NCBI GenBank assembly: GCA_023266115.1
Contig: JAHFRU010000008.1
Coordinates: 1 to 64,000 of the forward strand
From: Gammaproteobacteria bacterium
GTDB lineage: Bacteria; Pseudomonadota; Gammaproteobacteria; VBWC01
Length of the DNA: 64,000 bases
Reading direction: 5' to 3'
The notes under the pieces were generated by a model. It was not told where the DNA came from. It saw only the letters and a program-made list of their open reading frames with translations, and did not search any database. The position numbers and the translations under genes are program-made. Below are positions 5,949 through 19,108 of this stretch, in pieces (position 1 is the first letter of the stretch; each line of letters starts with the position of its first letter).

Positions 5949-6770
5949 GTGGATATATTGCTTTATCTCAAGGCCGCGCTGCTCGGCCTGCTTGAAGGGG
6001 CCACCGAGTTCCTGCCGATTTCCAGTACAGGCCATCTCATCATCGCCGCCGATCTGCTGGATTTCACCGGCGAACGCGCCAAGACTTTCACTATCTTCAT
6101 ACAGCTCGGCGCCATCCTCGCCATCGTCTGGCATTACCGCGCCAAGGTAACGAGCGTGGCGCGCGGCGTGGGCCATGATCGGGCGGCGCGGCGCTTCGTC
6201 GCCAATCTGTTCATCGCCTTCCTGCCGGCAGCGGTGCTGGGTTTGTTGCTGCACTCCACTATCAAGGCCTATTTGTTCAATCCGGTGTTGGTAGCCGCCG
6301 CGCTGGTGCTCGGCGGTTTCGTGATTTTGTGGATCGAGTCGCGCCAGCGCACACCGCGTATCGAACACGTCGACGATATGCGCTGGCAGGACGCGCTCAA
6401 AGTAGGCGTGGCGCAGAGTTTCGCGTTGTTTCCCGGCGTATCGCGCGCCGGCGCCACCATCATGGGCGGTTTGCTAAGCGGACTGTCGCGGCAGGCGGCA
6501 ACCGAGTTCTCGTTTTTTCTCGCCGTCCCCACCATGTTCGCGGCGACGTTGTACGACCTCTATAAAAGCCGCGACCTGATCCACACCGAAGAGGCCGCCT
6601 TGCTGCTAACCGGACTGGTCTGCGCTTTTTTCAGCGCGCTGGTCGTGGTGAAGGCCTTTCTCGCCTTTATCGCCCGTCACGATTTCAGGTTCTTCGCCTG
6701 GTACCGCATCGTTTTCGGCGGCGTGGTCCTCGTGCTGGGGCTGACCGGCGTGGTGCATTTCAACTCGTAA
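5949..6770 (+). CDS. uppP: Undecaprenyl-diphosphatase UppP (BacA)
   Basis: This 273-residue integral membrane enzyme dephosphorylates undecaprenyl pyrophosphate to recycle the lipid carrier for peptidoglycan and O-antigen synthesis. The family motifs are clear: LLGLLEGATEFLPISSTGHLII near the N-terminus (the E-rich motif and the PISSTGH loop) and FPGVSRAGATIMGGLLSGL (PGxSR motif, about residue 160). Multiple hydrophobic segments and a length close to the usual 270 agree. The start is GTG at 5949. No close operon partner is present. Confidence 0.96.
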   Translation: MDILLYLKAALLGLLEGATEFLPISSTGHLIIAADLLDFTGERAKTFTIFIQLGAILAIVWHYRAKVTSVARGVGHDRAARRFVANLFIAFLPAAVLGLLLHSTIKAYLFNPVLVAAALVLGGFVILWIESRQRTPRIEHVDDMRWQDALKVGVAQSFALFPGVSRAGATIMGGLLSGLSRQAATEFSFFLAVPTMFAATLYDLYKSRDLIHTEEAALLLTGLVCAFFSALVVVKAFLAFIARHDFRFFAWYRIVFGGVVLVLGLTGVVHFNS

Positions 6771-6951
6771 TCCCTTGCCCGCCGGATTGATCCGGTCGGC
6801 AGATATTCCGCGCCGTTACCCGTGGTGGTGATGAGTGGCACCGCAACCTTGTCGAGATCGCCACGCGATTTGTTCTGCCGGCGACACCGTGACTTCGCCT
6901 CCGCCGGAATGGATAACAAGGCAATGCCGTACCGACTATCCCCGCGTGAGC

Positions 6952-6987
6952 GTTCCGGTCAGAGCGCATATCCCGATGATGTAAACT
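6952..6987 (+). repeat. Isolated perfect copy of the CRISPR repeat
   Basis: The 36 bases are identical to the repeats of the array at 7941-8438 (GTTCCGGTCAGAG...GATGATGTAAACT). They stand 953 bases to the left of the array with no other repeat in between. The flanks show no spacer-repeat periodicity. The 181 bases between uppP and this repeat contain no gene I can support. The copy could be the original leader-side repeat separated by an insertion, or an ectopic repeat. Confidence 0.95.
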
Positions 6988-6994
6988 CAAGTGG

Positions 6995-7147
6995 GTGCTG
7001 ATGATGCTGGCGGCAACCGTGGTAAAGAACGTTCGCAACCTCGGCGACGTGAAATGGTGCGCGATTGAGGACGGATCCGTTGGGAAGGGAACAGGGCGGC
7101 ATATCGCGTGCTTTGTACTGATACCTAACAAGGATTCGCCCCCATGA
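6995..7147 (+). other. Possible coding fragment directly after the isolated repeat
   Basis: A 50-codon frame runs from GTG 6995 to TGA 7145-7147 and reads VLMMLAATVVKNVRNLGDV, then WCAIEDGSVGKGTGRH and ACFVLIPNKDSPP. The composition looks protein-like, but there is no clear ribosome site, and the frame is open back into the CRISPR repeat. I do not recognise the family. It may be the remnant of a gene carried in with the insert. Confidence 0.25.
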
Positions 7148-7177
7148 CTCTCTGGCAAACACAAGGAGGAATAGATC

Positions 7178-7225
7178 ATGAGCAAAAAGGAAAGGAATCG
7201 AAGCGATGAGTGGCCCCACAAGTAG
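7178..7225 (+). CDS. 15-residue ORF with a strong ribosome site, ending in a terminator hairpin
   Basis: The frame encodes MSKKERNRSDEWPHK and stops at TAG 7223-7225. An AAGGAGG sequence lies eight bases upstream, the strongest ribosome site in this part of the window. The last codons form the left arm of a terminator-like hairpin (7215-7245). It could be a leader peptide controlling the methyltransferase that begins at 7274, or just the start of a gene whose rest was lost. No run of one amino acid is present, so classical amino-acid attenuation is not indicated. Confidence 0.35.
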   Translation: MSKKERNRSDEWPHK

Positions 7226-7255
7226 TTGATATACTTGCTTGTGGGTAAGTTTTTT
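7215..7255 (+). terminator. Rho-independent terminator-like hairpin before the methyltransferase
   Basis: CCCACAAG (7215-7222) pairs with CTTGTGGG (7238-7245), and six Ts follow at 7250-7255. A competing inner pairing, CAAGTA with TACTTG, uses part of the same arms, so two exclusive folds are possible. It overlaps the stop of the 15-codon frame and precedes the ribosome site of the next gene. Confidence 0.6.
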
Positions 7256-7273
7256 CGGAATTGGGAGGCGCAC

Positions 7274-7978
7274 ATGAACATCTATACCAACATAAACGAT
7301 GAGACTGCCCTGCTTTCGTCCTATATCACCGAATCGTCCGAGATTCTGGAGGCTGGTTGCGGTCAACGGTGGCCACTACTGCTCTCCGTTCCCTATCGCC
7401 TGACCGGGATCGATCTTGATCCAGTGGCGCTGGATATTCGCGTGAACCAGCAAAAAGACTTGCATGAAGCCATTCTGGGTGATTTACGCACGCATTCCTT
7501 CGCGGATGCCTCGTTTGACGTGATCTACAACAGCTTCGTCCTCGAACATGTGGCAGGCGCGGAACAGGTCATGGATAACTTCGTGCGTTGGCTGAAGCCA
7601 GGTGGATTGCTGATGGTACAAATCCCGGTGTCGAATAGTGTCTATGGATTCATCACCAAGCACACGCCCCACTGGTTTCATATCGCGTATTATCGAGCCA
7701 AGGGACATAAACACGCCGGGAAGCCCGGATATGCGCCTTATCCGACGTATTACGATCCTATCGTGTCTATCGGCGGGATGCTGGATTTCTGCGACAGAAA
7801 GGGGCTTAAGGTGCGTGAAATGTATGGACAGCATTACTGGGTACCACAATGGCAGAAACGTATCGCAAGGGTAGTCAGCGCGATATCAGCGGGTAAACTG
7901 TCACACAACTATAACAGCGTTGGATGGGTGATCCAGAAGTGTTCCGGTCAGAGCGCATATCCCGATGATGTAAACTGA
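7274..7978 (+). CDS. Class I SAM-dependent methyltransferase lying between CRISPR repeats
   Basis: The start at ATG 7274 is chosen because GGGAGG lies six bases upstream; the protein is then 234 residues. SAM-binding motif I is EILEAGCGQRW. TGIDLDPVAL follows, then DASFDVIYNSFVLEHV and WLKPGGLLMVQIPVSN, as in Methyltransf_11 proteins. The last residues, CSGQSAYPDDVN, are encoded by the first repeat of the CRISPR array, and the TGA stop (7976-7978) uses the last base of that repeat and the first two bases of spacer 1. The natural C-terminus was probably near VGWVIQK. The substrate is unknown; no other methylation or restriction gene adjoins it. Confidence 0.8.
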   Translation: MNIYTNINDETALLSSYITESSEILEAGCGQRWPLLLSVPYRLTGIDLDPVALDIRVNQQKDLHEAILGDLRTHSFADASFDVIYNSFVLEHVAGAEQVMDNFVRWLKPGGLLMVQIPVSNSVYGFITKHTPHWFHIAYYRAKGHKHAGKPGYAPYPTYYDPIVSIGGMLDFCDRKGLKVREMYGQHYWVPQWQKRIARVVSAISAGKLSHNYNSVGWVIQKCSGQSAYPDDVN

Positions 7979-8438
7979 ATCGTGATCCAACCTTCGGTGG
8001 GGCATGGTTCCGGTCAGAGCGCATATCCCGATGATGTAAACTCAGAGCGCACAATATATGATTGGCGTAAGGGTTCCGGTCAGAGCGCATATCCCGATGA
8101 TGTAAACTCAAAAGACAAATACATCGCGTCATACGAGTGTTCCGGTCAGAGCGCATATCCCGATGATGTAAACTCTGAAACGCAATCGTAAACACGTTCG
8201 TCAGGTTCCGGTCAGAGCGCATATCCCGATGATGTAAACTGTTCAATGGGAGCCGCAACGTACAGTTGAAGTTCCGGTCAGAGCGCATATCCCGATGATG
8301 TAAACTTGTCGAAGAAATACCTAAAACAGTAAATGAGTTCCGGTCAGAGCGCATATCCCGATGATGTAAACTTCGAACGTCGCGCCCTTGATGTCGGTCA
8401 GGGTTCCGGTCAGAGCGCATATCCCGATGATGTAAACT
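7941..8438 (+). CRISPR. Type II-C CRISPR array: 8 identical 36-bp repeats, 7 spacers of 30 bp
   Basis: Repeats start at 7941, 8007, 8073, 8139, 8205, 8271, 8337 and 8403, with a strict 66-bp period. All copies are identical, including the last one. Transcription is assigned to the plus strand because the tracrRNA anti-repeat at 12886 complements the plus-strand repeat and a terminator follows the last repeat at 8446. The 3' end of the repeat (TGATGTAAACT) could serve as an extended -10 element, as in Neisseria and Campylobacter II-C arrays; this is inference. No spacer matches another part of this window by eye. Apparent minus-strand coding through the array is only the repeat read as protein. 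Confidence 0.98.
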
Positions 8439-8445
8439 GGTAGTA

Positions 8446-8482
8446 GCGAAACCCACTGATACTAGGGTGGGTTTCGCCTTTT
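8446..8482 (+). terminator. Terminator of the CRISPR array transcript
   Basis: A perfect 11-bp stem, GCGAAACCCAC with GTGGGTTTCGC, has a 10-base loop and is followed by CTTTT on the plus strand. It begins eight bases after the last repeat. The T-run is on the plus-strand side only, which supports plus-strand transcription of the array, converging on cas2. Confidence 0.9.
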
Positions 8483-8508
8483 CGTGGCACGAAAAATCAG
8501 GCGCACGA

Positions 8509-8835
8509 TCAAAATAGATCGAACTGGTCGGGCGATTTTTTTGCGGGTTGCTTGGCTTTGCCAAAGTAGGAAACGATACGTTCGTATTGTTTGTCGGTAA
8601 AGGTCAGGATATTCACTTTGCCGCCCTCGGGCAAGGCTCCTTCGACTCGTTTACAGTAAGTATCGATTTGCGCCTGACTTGTGCAAAAGCGCATGTAGAC
8701 AGAGAACTGGGTCATCTCGAATCCCATATCCAAAAGAGCCTTACGAAAGTCAGTTGCAGCCTTGCGCTCGGCTTTTTCGACGACAGGCAAGTCGAACATG
8801 ACAGCAACCCACATCAGCCGATATCCACTGAGCAT
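8509..8835 (-). CDS. cas2: CRISPR-associated endoribonuclease-fold protein Cas2
   Basis: The 108-residue protein begins MLSGYRLMWVAVMFDLPVVEKAERKAATDFRKALLDMGF, the typical ferredoxin-like Cas2 start with the metal-site aspartate in MFDLP. It forms the Cas1-Cas2 complex that inserts new spacers. It lies six bases after the cas1 stop, the last gene of the cas9-cas1-cas2 operon. The product ends in an FDLF tail. There is no csn2 or cas4, which fits subtype II-C. Confidence 0.96.
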   Translation of the reverse strand: MLSGYRLMWVAVMFDLPVVEKAERKAATDFRKALLDMGFEMTQFSVYMRFCTSQAQIDTYCKRVEGALPEGGKVNILTFTDKQYERIVSYFGKAKQPAKKSPDQFDLF

Positions 8836-8841
8836 TGGGCG

Positions 8842-9771
8842 TTAGTCATCGCTCAAACTGCCAGCCAGAAATACGGGCAGGCCAGGTAAAGGCAAATCAA
8901 GTTTGTCACGTTCGCCCAAGTAAACCTGTGCTAACGAGACAGCGAGCCGCTGCATGCAAACCATGGCCGGAGTAGCTCCTGAGTCGGTCTGCATGTCATC
9001 GTATAGCGAACGTACCAGTGCGCGCTTGGTATCGGGGGACACCCTCGACTCTTTTTTCTGCTGAAGTTGCCAGACGAGCAAGTCCACCATGGGGCGGAAA
9101 GGTTCCATCAGATCGTCAACCAAACGCATCGGGTTGCCTTCGTTAGAGTGATGCAATCCCAACGTCGGATGCAGTCCTGCAGCGACAACTGCGCGTGCAG
9201 TGGCGGCACGGTATACCGTGTATCCGTAGTTAAGCAGCGCGTTCAGACCGTCCCCGTTAGGGTCTCGGCGAAATTCACTGCCGAATAGTAATCCCCAATA
9301 CCGACGTGCCCCTTGAGCTTCCAAATTATCGGGGTCGCCAGATCTTACCTTGCCTGCCAAAGCGGAAAGCGGCGCTACCGGTGCGCCAGCGGCTTCGAGA
9401 GCGGCGGCCTGTTGCAGGAGTTTTGATCTGACAATATCTGCCCACAGGCGTTTGTGCGTAGGTTTGGTGGCAGCGAGCTGCGCATCAAAACGCTTGCCCT
9501 GCTGGTGATTGCCATCGATCGGCCACAGCATTCCCACGGCGTTGTGATTCGATGTACACAGTACAAAGGGCGCGCCACGTTCGGCCAGCGCGACCAGCAA
9601 ATTGTTGGTGTAGCTCAGACCGTGGGCGTTGGCTATTACGGCCGTAATATCGTCCAGCGGAACCTGCCCAAGTTCCTTGCGTTCGCCTTCCGTTTCTTGT
9701 ACGACCAGAAAACCGCGCGATACAAAGAGGTGTCGTCGGTCATCGGCCACTTCCACGATGCGGCCGATCAT
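8842..9771 (-). CDS. cas1: CRISPR-associated integrase Cas1
   Basis: The 309-residue Cas1 is of the type II kind. Expected metal-binding positions are seen: Glu in DNLEAQGARRYWG, His in LHPTLGLHHSNEG, and Asp/Glu in LVDDLMEPFRPMVD. It catalyses spacer integration at the leader-proximal repeat with Cas2. It starts five bases after the cas9 stop, so the three genes are one operon. The length is normal and all catalytic residues are present, so adaptation should be possible. Confidence 0.97.
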   Translation of the reverse strand: MIGRIVEVADDRRHLFVSRGFLVVQETEGERKELGQVPLDDITAVIANAHGLSYTNNLLVALAERGAPFVLCTSNHNAVGMLWPIDGNHQQGKRFDAQLAATKPTHKRLWADIVRSKLLQQAAALEAAGAPVAPLSALAGKVRSGDPDNLEAQGARRYWGLLFGSEFRRDPNGDGLNALLNYGYTVYRAATARAVVAAGLHPTLGLHHSNEGNPMRLVDDLMEPFRPMVDLLVWQLQQKKESRVSPDTKRALVRSLYDDMQTDSGATPAMVCMQRLAVSLAQVYLGERDKLDLPLPGLPVFLAGSLSDD

Positions 9772-9776
9772 AGCGG

Positions 9777-12700
9777 CTAGTCCTCGAAGCCGAGGTCGCG
9801 TAGATCGCCTACCTCCGAGACAGTAACGCGGCGGCCTTGTGCTTTCTGGAGCGAGCCAGCCATTTTTGATATGTACGAAAATGAATCCTGTTGATCGGCA
9901 TTGCGCTCGTTGACATTGGCTTCATTATGGTCAGAAAAAAATACTTGTCCGTTACCGCTGATTTTGACTACCCGCATGGTTCTGCACACATTGTCGTGAG
10001 TCAGACGAACCGGATCGTTAATCATCAGGCGCATTACTAACGGTTTTCCCGATTGGCTAAGCGCCGGGTTTCTGAGTTTCTTGAGTCCGGCGACCTCGCC
10101 AATTCGGCGTACGATCTGATATGCGTCAAACGTCGAGATTACATCGCCGCACCACTTGCCTTTCTCATCACGCCAGACCTCAAGACAGTAATTGCTACCA
10201 CCTACATAGCCCTTGTAGGGTTTGGGTTGTCCATGTTCATCCAGTCCATGGCGCTCAACATTGTGTGTGCTACTTATCATCACCACATTCTTTTTCTTGA
10301 ATTCGCGTTGATGTGGGCCGCCGTCATCGGGGCGGATGCGGCGCGTGACAATACCGTCATCGCGAAACCCCCATGCAGTTTCTTCATGTATGGCACCTTG
10401 ATAGCCATGGTCAGGCTTGTGGCTTGCTATGATGTAGCGCAAGGCTCGTTCGACATGTTCCTGGTAAGTGGGCCACGGAAGCGGCATCTCGTCCACCAGC
10501 CGGTTGAGTTGTCTTTCTCGCGTATTGGCGCTAGCTTGGGCAAAGCGTTGCAACAGCCCTTGATTAGTAACGGCAATAACCGCTGCATCCAGCGCATGAT
10601 GGCGGTGGTCATTGCGGTTTTTTGTCTCCGAACCGGAAAGCAGGTGATTCAGACCAAACTTGCCACGCAGCAAGGCCGTCATACGCCCAGGAATGGCGCG
10701 CACCATGTTGGGTGGACAAATCAGGGATAGATACTCTTTCGCGATACGTGAAAGGTATGCAGTATCATTCAGCGCCCGAGCCAGAAAATCTTTGTCTTCC
10801 CTGAGCCATTGCTGATAACCGTCCGGCGCGAAACGCTTGGCTTTCTGCTTGGGCATAAGTGCGGCGCGCACAAGGATAGCGGCATAGTCATATCCCGGTA
10901 CGGGCTGTTCGCCGAACGCTGCATAGGGTGTACGGTTGCCCTTGTCACGGTTGGCGCGACGCATGGCCACGGTCTTGTTGTTGAGACTATCATCTAAGGT
11001 TATTGAGTAAGGCAGAATGTGGTCAATCTCCGCTTCATCCGACAGTAACCGTCCGATGCCGATTTGTTCCCCGGTGTACGGGCAACGGCGCTCGGCGGGG
11101 TCGTTGTTAAGCTCCACCCATAGCTGCATTTTTTGCGAAAGTTCACGGCGCTTGGCTTTGTCCAGGTTGTCCGGTGTCAGGCCGAGTACTGCACAGGCTT
11201 CGACGACATGCATGTCATTAAGTTTTTGTCGCGCCGCCTGTTCTTTCTGGATTTCCTGTTTTCGTTCCCGGCCCAGCTTCAGATCGCGCGCTACTTCTAC
11301 GATAACCTCGCTTGGATGTCCATAGCGTTTTATGAGTGCATTGACCACTTTGCGTAGTTCGTTCAGGCCGATGTGCACGGTGGGGTTAGCGATTCTCCCG
11401 TAGCGTTCTTCATCATTGCGTGGGTTATCCTTGGCAAAGGCAACATGTCGGCGCAGCGGGATACCGTAATAAGGCAGAGATTCCATCATCTCGCCTGTTT
11501 CTTGTGCGTACGAAAGCGCGCTGTGACTGCCAAACCCGGCACGCGTCACCGCTTCGGAGTAAACCACGACATCCTTGATGAGTTCGGGCAGCACACGAGC
11601 TAGCGCAGTGCGGCTCAGGTTGCCGTAGCCTTCCGGCAGATTGGCGTTGGCGATACGCTCGGCGGTGGTCTCATCCACTCCAGTGTGCTGCTGCAACCAG
11701 TTCACAAGAGATGATTCGCTAGCCTCGTTCAAAAGCCTGTCAACGATGTTGTCCTGCAAAGCTTGATCGAGGCCATGCCAGTGTTCTCCAAAATGATGCT
11801 CCTTTGAAAGGATGGCAGTGGTGATGTTGCCTTTGAGGCGATCGCGTTTTATATCCTCGAGATTGAATCGTGTCGTCCCCGGCAACTTGAGCGTTCTGAG
11901 GATCCTGGTGAAAGTCGCATCGCCCCGTTCCAGCAGGTGTGCGAGGATATTGCGTTGCTCCAGTGTCAAAGTAATCTCGCGCAAATCGGTAGTCAGTAGC
12001 CGCAGGTTGTTAAGTTCCTGATAGATACGGAAGCGCTGCGTGCTCGGCAGAGCCAGCGGAGCACGCTCCTCATCCGGCAGCAATGTACAGCGTCCCGGTT
12101 TGACAGGCTTCAAGGGTCGCTGGAACAGAAGGATGTCTTTGAGTTCATCGCGTGCCGCGTCATTGAATAGCATCGGGTTGAGGCTGTTTTGCTTGGCCCA
12201 CAACGTATCGAATTCGTGCTCGATCATGGCGCGGTCGGCATAGAAGTCATACGCCTTTTCTTTCCGGGTCTTGCCACGCAACCTTGCTCGCACGCTCATG
12301 CGGGCTGCGTGGCGATTTGCAAGCCATTCGCCAAGGGTTTGGCAATTCTCCTGCTGAAATTTTTCGCGAAGATCCCTTATGGCTTTTTTGAGTGCGCCGC
12401 TTTCGTTGTCTTTCTTGTCCGTTTTGCGGTTGCTCAGAAATCCTCGCCGCTTATTGATATGAAACAGTGCGCGGGCAAATTCGGGACCGGTCAACGCCTC
12501 ATACAGACCTTTTCTACGCAGGGCGTAGGGGTCGAGATCGACCAGTTTGCGCCGCTCGTTAGCATCTTCCGGAAAGAAGCCCAGGCGGATAAGTGCGGAC
12601 AGCATTCGTTCCTTGCGTTTGAGCAGCCGGTCACGGCGACGACGCATCTGGCGCGCTTGCCGACGAGTGACGGCCAGCGAGCTACCGTTCTTGGGATTGC

Positions 12701-12836
12701 GTCCATCGGAGAATATACGCGCACCCATGCGTATTACGGCGACGGGTTCGTCTTCAGCATCCAGGCGAATCATGCACCAGCCAATGGACGTCGAGCCGGT
12801 ATCCAACCCTAATCGGTAGCGCATTTTGGGTAGCAT
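9777..12836 (-). CDS. cas9: CRISPR-associated endonuclease Cas9, compact type II-C
   Basis: The protein has 1019 residues, small even for II-C. Domains in order: RuvC-I with YRLGLDTGSTSIGW (catalytic D12), an Arg-rich bridge helix (about 56-80), a recognition lobe, RuvC-II VIVEVARDL (E514), HNH with EIDHILPYS (D605-H606) and ANRDKGN, RuvC-III RHHALDAAVIAV (H747, D750), then a C-terminal PAM-interacting region (about 800-1019). All nuclease residues are present. The start at 12836 has AGGAG seven bases upstream; an in-frame ATG four codons later (12824) also precedes the first RuvC motif. The gene diverges from the tracrRNA and is followed closely by cas1. The PAM cannot be predicted from this sequence. 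Confidence 0.98.
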   Translation of the reverse strand: MLPKMRYRLGLDTGSTSIGWCMIRLDAEDEPVAVIRMGARIFSDGRNPKNGSSLAVTRRQARQMRRRRDRLLKRKERMLSALIRLGFFPEDANERRKLVDLDPYALRRKGLYEALTGPEFARALFHINKRRGFLSNRKTDKKDNESGALKKAIRDLREKFQQENCQTLGEWLANRHAARMSVRARLRGKTRKEKAYDFYADRAMIEHEFDTLWAKQNSLNPMLFNDAARDELKDILLFQRPLKPVKPGRCTLLPDEERAPLALPSTQRFRIYQELNNLRLLTTDLREITLTLEQRNILAHLLERGDATFTRILRTLKLPGTTRFNLEDIKRDRLKGNITTAILSKEHHFGEHWHGLDQALQDNIVDRLLNEASESSLVNWLQQHTGVDETTAERIANANLPEGYGNLSRTALARVLPELIKDVVVYSEAVTRAGFGSHSALSYAQETGEMMESLPYYGIPLRRHVAFAKDNPRNDEERYGRIANPTVHIGLNELRKVVNALIKRYGHPSEVIVEVARDLKLGRERKQEIQKEQAARQKLNDMHVVEACAVLGLTPDNLDKAKRRELSQKMQLWVELNNDPAERRCPYTGEQIGIGRLLSDEAEIDHILPYSITLDDSLNNKTVAMRRANRDKGNRTPYAAFGEQPVPGYDYAAILVRAALMPKQKAKRFAPDGYQQWLREDKDFLARALNDTAYLSRIAKEYLSLICPPNMVRAIPGRMTALLRGKFGLNHLLSGSETKNRNDHRHHALDAAVIAVTNQGLLQRFAQASANTRERQLNRLVDEMPLPWPTYQEHVERALRYIIASHKPDHGYQGAIHEETAWGFRDDGIVTRRIRPDDGGPHQREFKKKNVVMISSTHNVERHGLDEHGQPKPYKGYVGGSNYCLEVWRDEKGKWCGDVISTFDAYQIVRRIGEVAGLKKLRNPALSQSGKPLVMRLMINDPVRLTHDNVCRTMRVVKISGNGQVFFSDHNEANVNERNADQQDSFSYISKMAGSLQKAQGRRVTVSEVGDLRDLGFED

Positions 12837-12849
12837 CCAATTCTCCTGG

Positions 12850-12879
12850 TTGACGTTCGTTGTAACAGAGGACTATCCT
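12850..12879 (+). promoter_or_regulatory. Predicted sigma70-type promoter of the tracrRNA
   Basis: A TTGACG -35 box (12850-12855) and a TATCCT -10 box (12874-12879) are 18 bases apart. A start seven bases beyond the -10 falls at 12886, exactly the first base of the anti-repeat. The promoter overlaps the 5' leader of cas9 on the other strand. Confidence 0.6.
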
Positions 12880-12885
12880 TGCGAC

Positions 12886-12971
12886 GTTACATCATCGGGA
12901 TATGCGCTCTGTCCGCTAACAAGCTGAAGAGCACCAAATGAGGGGCCGCTATATGCGGCCTCTTTGTTTTT
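12886..12971 (+). ncRNA. tracrRNA (anti-repeat, nexus hairpin, terminator)
   Basis: The sequence GTTACATCATCGGGATATGC followed by GCTCTG is the reverse complement of the repeat's 3' two-thirds, with one T missing. The remaining GTCCGCTAAC pairs partly with the repeat start GTTCCGGTC, leaving an internal bulge as in other type II duplexes. Then come a small nexus hairpin, GCT-GAAG-AGC (12923-12932), and a terminator stem, GAGGGGCCGC with GCGGCCTCTT (12940-12964), with a T-rich tail. The predicted RNA is about 86 nt. It would guide RNase III processing of crRNA and load Cas9. It is transcribed divergently from cas9. Confidence 0.9.
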
Positions 12972-13159
12972 GTAAGTTGCTTGATTTGGTGTTGTTTGGT
13001 TTACACGGGCGCCAGTCAGGCGTTAATCCCGATATACCGATACAGAAATAGATACTCTTCTATGCAGAAGAGGTCAAATAGCAAGCGGCCCGCGCAGATT
13101 TTCCAATCGGATTACTTGTTAAGGTCAAAAATTGACAAGTCGATTGTAACCAATTTGTC

Positions 13160-13305
13160 TTAGCTGTCCTTCCCCGGCCAGTGGCTGACATCCAGTCAAG
13201 CGCCGAGGCCGGCGAGTAGCCCGGTGAGGAGGGGGGCGTTGCCAACCATCGATGGGGAGTAGCCGGCGATGCCTTTGATCACAGCGGCGCCGACAATAGT
13301 CTTGA
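13160..13305 (-). pseudogene. Detached copy of the 3' end of ubiB
   Basis: On the minus strand this reads [34 protein letters not shown], then TGA in place of a Trp codon, then LDVSHWPGKDS and TAA. The intact UbiB at 17450 ends [45 protein letters not shown]. Only these last 45 or so codons are present. With the short copy at 16005 it forms a series of three ubiB tails, suggesting insertions at or behind the ubiB stop. The bases between the tracrRNA and this copy (12975-13159) hold an ACTTGT...ACAAGT inverted repeat and no gene. Confidence 0.8.
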
Positions 13306-16062: not shown

Positions 16063-17430
16063 TCACGTTGCCTTCCGCTTCTGGTACTGCGATGGCCGCA
16101 GGCGGTAGCGGGCGATGTTTCCTTCGTGAAGATTCATGACCGTCGTTTCCACGACCTCGATGAATCGTGCCTGATCCTCCTGAGGGACGTCCTCGACCGC
16201 ACGACGCTTGATGAAGGCGGTGGCGGCCTTCTTGTCCATGCCGCTATCAACAATCCCGGAGACGACCTCGGCCAACAGCGTGCGATAGCGCAGACGAAAC
16301 GGGTCCGGTTCTCCCAGTGACTGGCGCACCGCCGCATAACGCGCGCATGAACGTTCATACGCCCACACGAATATGTCGCGCAACAACTCGATGCGATTCA
16401 GTTCATATACCCCGAGCACGCCATCGATATAGGGTTGTTCGGGTACATCGACGAACGACAGCGGGCTGAGGTTTTCGCGGATCAGCGGCAGATTCGCGGC
16501 GAGGCGCGAAACACGTTTGTTCACATCGCGAAAAAGGCCTGCTCGAACGGATCGGTGATCGCCGCGGCGGTATCCAGAAACTGCTGAAAACCGTCCTCGA
16601 TCAATTGCGGAACCGCGGGTGGATGATAGACCGTTCCCGCAATGCCCATCGCAATGGCGCGCAAGCGTCCACAGGCCTGGGGGTCGGCGAGCAAGTTATC
16701 GGATAACAATGCATGCAGGTTCAAAATGGTGTAGCGGTTAAAACCGACTTCGGCGGCGTGTGCGATCAACAGGTCGATCGCCGCCTTGTGGTTCAGGATC
16801 ATCTGCGCGTCGCGGGCATCCTTGCCCTCGGCGGCCTCGCCCGATTCCAGCAGGCGCTCCGTTTCGAGCAGCGAGTAGGTGTTGCCTTCCAGGCGGCTGG
16901 AGTTCCAGGACAGATCGATCAGCAGGCGACTGTAAATCTGCCGCACATAAGTCCCGTGCCGGCCGCTGACCATCCGGCGAGCGTCCCATCTCAGATAGTT
17001 GCTGCCGGATTTCCCGGGGAAGATAAAACGTTTCATTGGGCCGGTACGCATCGAGAAACTCCCGGTTGTATCCGAGGGATGGCGGTTCTGAATCGGCTGG
17101 CGGACAGCCTGTCTGATGGCCTTCCCCTCCGGGGAGATTGGAATGTATCTTTCAACATGGGGTGCATGTCGGTTAAGCGTAAATTTGCCGGGTGGCATGC
17201 GAACCTCGGTCCCGACCGGCACTGCCTTATAACGAGTACCACGAGCGCGACCTTCCACGATCAGCTGCCTCTGGTTAACGAGCAGCGTCAAACGGCGCTG
17301 CAATGTGCGGTGTGGCAACTTGATTTTCAGCGCCTGCGAAGTCGGGTTGAGCCTGTCAGGCGGGAGTCGGGTTTGTTGCTGCCTGTCCCGGTACTCACCG
17401 ATGTCAGCGGGCTTTGGTGCTGACGGATCA
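16063..17430 (-). pseudogene. Decayed Fic-domain gene with lost catalytic motif
   Basis: The N-terminal winged-helix part (RTLQRRLTLLVNQRQLIVEGRARGTRY) and YIPISPEGKAIRQAVRQPIQNRHP lead into the region where REFLDAYRPNETFYLPREI is found only in another frame. The frame returns at GTYVRQIYSRLLIDLSWNSSRLEGNTYSL, so there are two compensating frameshifts (near 17085 and 16950). Near 16530 a deletion joins FEQAFFA to DVNKRVSRLAANL. It removes the HxFx half of the Fic motif and changes the frame. The C-terminal part runs to 16063. The catalytic His is gone, so AMP transfer is not possible. The 5' end abuts ubiB and no clean start codon survives. Confidence 0.85.
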
Positions 17431-17449: not shown

Positions 17450-19108
17450 TCAATCATTTTTCCCCGGCCAATAACTGATGACCAGCCAGATGCCGAGGCC
17501 GGTGAGCAGCCAGGTGAGGAGTGGTGCATTGCCCGCCATGGCCGGCGCGTAGCCGTCGAGGCCCTTGATCACTGCGGCGCCGACGATGCAGGCGCCGCTG
17601 ATGATCGCGACATAGGTGCGGCGATTGGCCGTGCGTATTTCTTCGCGCAGTTTGTCGATGTCGGGCGCGCGCCACTGTATTTCGAGCTTGCCGTGCTGCG
17701 CCTTGATAAGCACGTCATGCAGTAACAGCGGCAGTTGCGGCAGTGCCTGCGCCAGACGCGGTGCGTTGTCGCGCAGCGATTTCAGCACGGCGCGCATGCC
17801 GATCTGTTCGTCCATCCAGCGCTCGAAAAACGGTTTGGCGGTTTTCCACAGATCGAGATCGGGATAAAGCTGGCGGCCGAGGCCTTCGATGTTCAGCAGG
17901 GTTTTTTCCAGCAGCACCAGTTGCGGTTGCACTTCCATGTTGAACTGGCGCGCGGTCTGGAACAGCCGCACCAGCAGCAGGCCGAACGAGATGTCTTTCA
18001 ATGGCCGCTCGAAGATCGGATCGCAGACGCTGCGTATCGCCGACTCGAATTCATCGATGCGCGTGCCGGCCGGCACCCAGCCGGACTCGACGTGCAGTTC
18101 CGCGACCCGTCGGTAATCGCGCTGGAAGAAGGCGAGAAAATTTTCGGCGAGATAGCGCTGGTCTGCCGGCATCAGTGTGCCCATGATGCCGAAGTCGACC
18201 GCGACGTATTGGCCCTGCTTTGATACGAAGATATTGCCGGGGTGCATGTCGGCATGAAAGAAGTTATCGACAAACACCTGATGAAAGAATATCTGCACGC
18301 CGCTCTCGGCGAGTTTCTGGAAGTCGATGCCGGCCGCGCGCAGCCCCTCGATGTTACTGATAGCAATGCCAGCGATGCGCTCCATCACCAGCACGTCGGG
18401 CCGCGTGTACGGCCAGTGGACTTCCGGTACGTAGAGCAGCGGCGAGCCGGTAAAGTTTCGCTTGAGCTGCGCGGCGTTCGCCGCCTCGCGCATCATGTCG
18501 AGTTCGTTGAAGATGGTCTTTTCATAATCGGCGACGACCTCGACCGGCCGCAGCCGCCGGCCGTCCGGCCAGTAGCGCGCGGCGAGGTCCGCGATGGTGT
18601 ACAGCAGATCGATGTCGCGACGGATCTGTTTCTCGATGCCCGGCCGCACCACCTTGACAATGACCTGGCGGCCGTCGTGCAGTCGGGCGGCGTGTACCTG
18701 CGCGATCGATGCCGAGGCGAGCGGCGTTTCGTCGAAGGAAGCAAACATCTCGGTGACCGCCTTCTTGTAGGCGCGCTCAACGATCGCGCGCGCCTCGTCG
18801 CCGGGAAACGGCGGCACGCTGTCCTGCAACTTCGCCAGCTCGACCGCGATATCCTCCGGCAGCAGGTCGCGGCGCGTCGAGACGATCTGGCCGAACTTGA
18901 CGAAGATCGGGCCGAGTTCCTCGAGCGCCCGGCGCACCCGCTCGCCGCGCGGTGCAGTGCTGCGATGCCCCCAGTTCCACGGCATCAGCCGCATCGCCAG
19001 CCGTGCCGGACGGAACAGATGCGTCGCGAGGATGATGTCGTCGAGCCCGTTGCGCGTCAACACGCGGTTGATGGTAAGCAGACGGCGGATCTGGCCTAGG
19101 CGAATCAC
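17450..19108 (-). CDS. ubiB: UbiB, atypical kinase/ATPase of ubiquinone biosynthesis
   Basis: This 552-residue ADCK-family protein supports coenzyme Q synthesis at the membrane. The KxGQ-type motif is in [21 protein letters not shown]; the Ala-rich loop, [10 protein letters not shown] lysine, [21 protein letters not shown] catalytic loop and VAVDFGIMG metal motif are all present. Two C-terminal membrane segments (about 500-520 and 527-545) anchor it. The start is GTG at 19108. It is the last gene of ubiE-ubiJ-ubiB. Copies of its final codons are found at 13160 and 16005, so its 3' end appears to be a site of repeated insertion. Confidence 0.96.

Follow-up and report, generated by a model that had tools for sequence, protein, structure and literature searches.

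In type II-C CRISPR-Cas systems each repeat contains its own promoter, new spacers are acquired at the last repeat, and an "extra" repeat adjoins the oldest spacer (PMC12080349, PMC12638026). The locus described here agrees with a II-C locus of this kind (PMC12080349) in its cas9-cas1-cas2 genes, its tracrRNA, an array reading towards cas2, -10-like repeat ends and an oldest repeat opposite cas2, but differs from it in that its extra repeat is undecayed and is set apart by a gene-bearing segment of 953 bp. A comparable insert has been reported for locus F of S. solfataricus, where an 899-bp plasmid-like fragment lies between two repeats (PMC4390879). In both cases about 0.9 kb of foreign DNA separates repeats and the size comes near a whole number of repeat-spacer units (approximately so in S. 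solfataricus), whereas the archaeal array is leaderless and the present one belongs to a bacterial II-C system, with the insert at the oldest unit and a layout that recurs with toxin genes. CreTA guards (PMC9458426, PMC8501985) also comprise an ectopic repeat beside a CRISPR locus, and two relatives of the present locus hold toxin cargo. Unlike CreTA, however, the locus is of type II rather than type I, its repeat is perfect rather than degenerate, and protein genes take the place of a toxic RNA; no guide-like unit directed against the cargo was seen in the window. Solitary repeat units of viruses (reviewed in PMC8616872) share with it a single canonical repeat and a proposed recombination with the host array, but the repeat studied here has no phage genes nearby and adjoins its own array. 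The arrangement is real and uncommon, with an archaeal precedent and two parallels found in this work, and it is possible that its cargo is exchangeable.

The window, that is, the whole stretch of 64,000 nucleotides analysed, begins at the start of C22, a contig of 124,745 bp and one of the 46 that make up the 3.1-Mb draft genome (Table 1). The cas set at the locus consists of cas9, cas1 and cas2 only, with neither csn2 nor cas4, and all three genes point at the array. The anti-repeat of the tracrRNA differs from the repeat at 6 of 36 positions, and the predicted duplex between them reaches -53.7 kcal/mol, where shuffled controls average -13.6. Judged by its gene content and RNA elements, the locus is apparently an intact type II-C system. 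A TANNNT motif, -10-like and promoter-like by sequence, ends the repeat in all 29 II-C loci surveyed, the window included. No Rfam family was detected over 6750-13000.

Table 1. Features of the CRISPR locus and its surroundings, in window positions.
Feature	Position	Strand	Remarks
uppP/BacA, host gene left of the island	5949-6770	+	PF02673 3.7e-82; 98% identical in sister genome G001
Solo CRISPR repeat	6952-6987	+	Exact copy; probably the displaced oldest ("extra") repeat; intact -10-like TAAACT end
Inserted segment between two repeats	6988-7940	+	953 bp; GC 0.51-0.52 versus 0.62 immediately left of the solo repeat
48-codon frame	6999-7145		Inside the 953-bp segment
15-codon frame	7178-7225	+	MSKKERNRSDEWPHK
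Terminator-like hairpin and T-run, 5' of the methyltransferase	7215-7256	+	Fold -16.8 kcal/mol, z -2.6
Class I SAM methyltransferase	7274-7978	+	PF08241 1.7e-15
CRISPR array	7941-8438	+	8 identical 36-bp repeats, 7 spacers of 30 bp, period 66
Conserved hairpin, cas2 (acquisition) side	8446-8477	+	Compensatory changes in relatives
cas2	8509-8835	-	TIGR01573 1.8e-16
cas1, type II	8842-9771	-	TIGR03639 3e-70
cas9, 1019 aa	9777-12836	-	TIGR01865 5.6e-183
tracrRNA	12884-12976	+	Anti-repeat 12884-12919, then hairpin and terminator
Diverged copy of ubiB 3' end, right edge of the island	13170-13294		125 bp, 78% identical to 17460-17584 in the genome's own ubiB

The 36-bp repeat, GTTCCGGTCAGAGCGCATATCCCGATGATGTAAACT, occurs nine times in the genome, always on the plus strand and without a mismatch: once alone at 6952 and eight times in the array (starts at 7941, 8007, 8073, 8139, 8205, 8271, 8337 and 8403). 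A tenth copy with up to three mismatches was not found anywhere in the 3.1 Mb, and a perfect 36-bp match between the solo repeat and the array is far above chance. Two identical repeats enclosing exactly 953 bp, as claimed in the sequence-only reading, are therefore a fact of the assembly, and the 15-codon frame, terminator and class I methyltransferase that it placed between them are all present, together with a 48-codon frame; its end point of 7978 is the end of the methyltransferase gene, inside array repeat 1. No spacer target was found among phages, nor was the 36-bp repeat found in viral contigs. The start-to-start distance from 6952 to 7941 is 989 bp, one base below 15 repeat-spacer units (15 x 66 - 1), a near-coincidence that is probably due to chance; the corresponding distances at the parallel loci described below (838, 163 and 469) do not fit whole units.

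The CRISPR locus appears to have arrived from elsewhere. The only sister genome, G001, possesses uppP but no cas9; it diverges from the window at 6820, its contig ends about 78 bp further on, and its homologues of the right flank lie on other contigs. At the solo repeat GC drops from 0.62 to 0.52, and this step, together with the ubiB fragment at the right edge, suggests a horizontally transferred island.

The end of the array at which the solo repeat stands was judged indirectly, by comparison, all repeats in the window being identical. Among 29 II-C loci, gathered from the genome searches (among the matches listed) and a plasmid collection, 12 have a decayed repeat at the start of the array, the end farther from cas2, and a clearly decayed repeat on the cas2 side was seen in none of the 29. 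Between the last repeat and cas2 lie 80 bp with a hairpin that the five closest relatives share, with compensatory base changes (CAC/GTG versus CGC/GCG); in the flank opposite cas2, no similarity above alignment noise was found among the same relatives. Because of these decayed far-end repeats, the conserved cas2-side element and the published acquisition at the last repeat (PMC12080349, PMC12638026), the solo repeat is assigned to the leader-distal, oldest end, which would place the methyltransferase gene between that repeat and the oldest spacer. The sequence-only reading had taken the solo repeat for a leader-side unit, the opposite polarity.

Counting the window, 25 II-C loci have 3 kb or more of sequence ahead of the array, and 3 of them (the window and 2 of the 24 others) show a solo repeat with intervening DNA at the old end. 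On the complete Limnohabitans plasmid pTEGF4, whose Cas1 is 68% identical, a solo repeat with one mismatch stands 838 bp ahead of the array, and the cargo is an antitoxin-PemK/MazF operon on the array strand with relatives on other plasmids. The G141 locus has three decayed repeats ahead of its array; their first interval, of 127 bp, is wholly coding and encodes the central portion of a toxin from the RelE/ParE family; the second interval, of 433 bp, contains small frames. The cargo of all three loci follows the orientation of the array and always occupies the oldest end. The recurrence in relatives that the sequence-only reading had considered was seen at those two loci, with other cargo (a toxin-antitoxin pair and a toxin fragment). 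G399 offers a contrast: there a 1.4-kb insertion, flanked on each side by CCCGCGATC, splits a repeat in the middle of the array, the sequence signature of an ordinary insertion. A gene between the oldest repeat and the array is accordingly a rearrangement of the old, inactive end that is uncommon yet recurs.

The methyltransferase runs into the array. Its domain is complete through K222 (codon 7937-7939), after which a single T precedes the repeat at 7941, and this repeat supplies the last 12 codons (tail CSGQSAYPDDVN) and the stop (7976-7978), the natural stop having been lost. Since K222 aligns with a lysine after which most homologues have only one more residue (e.g., ...GDYHVILRKS), the domain is regarded as complete and the alignment places the junction of the methyltransferase DNA within a few bases (1-4 nt) of the repeat edge. 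A paralogue with 57% identity in the same genome (C35:253422-253814) is cut short by transposase-like sequence and lies in a glycosyltransferase cluster, a setting that points to a function of the polysaccharide type. The protein fits no defence family, the nearest being a partial, weak hit to mad2 (8.9e-8 over 85 residues), and it scored below the cut-off of every NCBIfam model. No relative was found near CRISPR among the genomes and collections searched, and none in phages. It is proposed that the methyltransferase is a passenger and not a Cas component.

Neither the sister genome G001 nor the fetched II-C loci contain similarity to the 953-bp segment, its upstream part matched no plasmid, and neither a viral gene nor a toxin gene was recognized within it. 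The last codons of the 15-codon frame overlap the 5' arm of the hairpin, giving 7178-7256 an attenuator-like layout ahead of the methyltransferase. A transposon or IS insertion was considered for the window and rejected, no end-matching inverted repeats or target duplication being present.

Taken as a whole, the comparisons make it somewhat more probable than not that the solo repeat was once the oldest in a II-C array of ordinary build and was displaced when 0.95 kb of foreign DNA was inserted into the old end, the stranded side then shrinking to one repeat. The foreign DNA would have entered by recombination or illegitimate joining. A side severed from the acquisition end could thereafter only lose units through repeat-repeat recombination, down to a single repeat that cannot itself be lost in this way, while the cas2 side would continue to grow; collapse of arrays to one repeat through such recombination and repeat-repeat deletion has been discussed and proposed (PMC8047081). 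With 36-bp direct repeats on both sides, the methyltransferase gene would be deletable in one step, so that cargo that persists may be useful or, as with toxin-antitoxin genes, addictive. Retention through addiction would fit the toxin genes, though not obviously the methyltransferase. With the stop at the repeat end, any processing there by RNase III and tracrRNA would cut the methyltransferase mRNA before its stop codon, a likely side effect of the arrangement. It should be noted that oldest repeats usually decay, yet this one is perfect, which speaks against the proposal.

The mode of entry is narrowed by the junctions. Insertion into a spacer should leave a spacer remnant of about 30 bp, whereas the methyltransferase reaches to within 1-4 nt of the repeat at 7941 and the toxin fragment of G141 fills its whole interval. 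Junctions so close to the repeat edges argue against a simple spacer insertion, and the routes left are recombination at the repeats and, with much lower probability, uptake of an oversized spacer. In the former, circles or linear fragments with a repeat and a cargo gene would recombine with the terminal repeat and the cargo would be exchangeable, an idea of the sequence-only reading here moved to the old end. The cargo indeed differs among the loci (methyltransferase, antitoxin-toxin pair, toxin fragment) while position and strand are the same, G141 and the right side of the window insert have their junctions at the edge of a repeat, and recombination between a solitary repeat unit and an array has been proposed for viruses (PMC8616872). 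Such exchange is nevertheless unlikely: only 3 of 25 loci have the layout, their repeats differ from one another, different cargo was never seen between flanks common to two loci, and neither a circular donor nor an unlinked unit of cargo and repeat was observed. An extension of this idea is highly improbable, namely that old-end II-C repeats hold addictive or useful genes whose mRNA ends in the repeat and would stand under tracrRNA/RNase III/Cas9 control, being cut before the stop while the system is intact and expressed once it is lost, as a type II counterpart of CreTA.

Cas1-Cas2 measures about 30 bp and duplicates whatever sequence is at the integration target. Ectopic placement of an array repeat by these proteins, one of the options raised in the sequence-only reading, is for the latter reason rejected as unlikely, since integration duplicates the local target and does not move the repeat of the array. 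Integration of a long fragment into a one-repeat array, followed by normal spacers, would yield a duplicated repeat with exact junctions on both sides, to which both edges of the 127-bp fragment of G141 conform, and would account for the insert always being the oldest unit. However, inserts of 127, 433, 802 and 953 bp exceed the ruler, no precedent is known for integration of any of these lengths by this enzyme, and so oversized capture is very unlikely. A different sequence of events, in which the array landed beside the methyltransferase gene and the solo repeat was left at the host boundary by an earlier array or insertion, finds support in the GC change at the solo repeat and in the first or solo repeats of five loci that lie flush (within 11 nt) with the 3' ends of same-strand genes. 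But in both parallel loci it is the host gene that abuts the solo repeat, with the cargo inside, and two independent arrivals would need an identical repeat, the solo copy being exactly that of the array; this history is rather unlikely. The 46-contig state of the draft and the GC step at the repeat might, finally, raise suspicion that two contigs or strains were joined at an identical repeat. Such an error is extremely improbable, as 36 bp is far below read length, the contig of 124,745 bp has host genes on both sides, and a complete Limnohabitans plasmid shows the same layout.

Arrays are usually viewed as clean spacer lists, and the recurrent presence of genes, some of them toxin-antitoxin genes, between an oldest repeat and its array suggests that the inactive end is a soft spot at which foreign DNA can enter and stay. 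Such loci provide a natural system for measuring repeat-repeat recombination and array collapse. They also show that the coding sequence of a protein can terminate within a repeat, where an ordinary mRNA could be exposed to crRNA processing. Should the cargo be passenger DNA and nothing more, the contribution to the understanding of array evolution is modest.

Two further loci show repeats or neighbouring genes in other positions. In L106 (G119), a lone repeat with two mismatches lies past cas9 near the tracrRNA anti-repeat, at oriented position 16914 and about 4.6 kb from the array. In L115 (IMGVR_UViG_3300009527_000153), a related II-C locus (Cas1 78% identical) has a truncated cas2 into which phage genes of Mu-like appearance run directly, which may be read as a phage inserted in cas2 or as a phage carrying cas9-cas1.

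The old end may also tend to meet the ends of genes directly. The five loci in which the first or solo repeat is at most 11 nt from the 3' end of a same-strand gene are G016, G141 (mobA), Limnohabitans (response regulator), G478 and G735. In six more II-C loci a gene 3' end lies about 80 nt from the first repeat, sometimes with a hairpin between them. In three of these loci the stop codon is supplied by or contained in the repeat. At the G016 locus (L060), a PIN-domain toxin gene and small antitoxin-like frames stand directly 5' of the array, and the TAG stop of the last frame uses the first base of the repeat.
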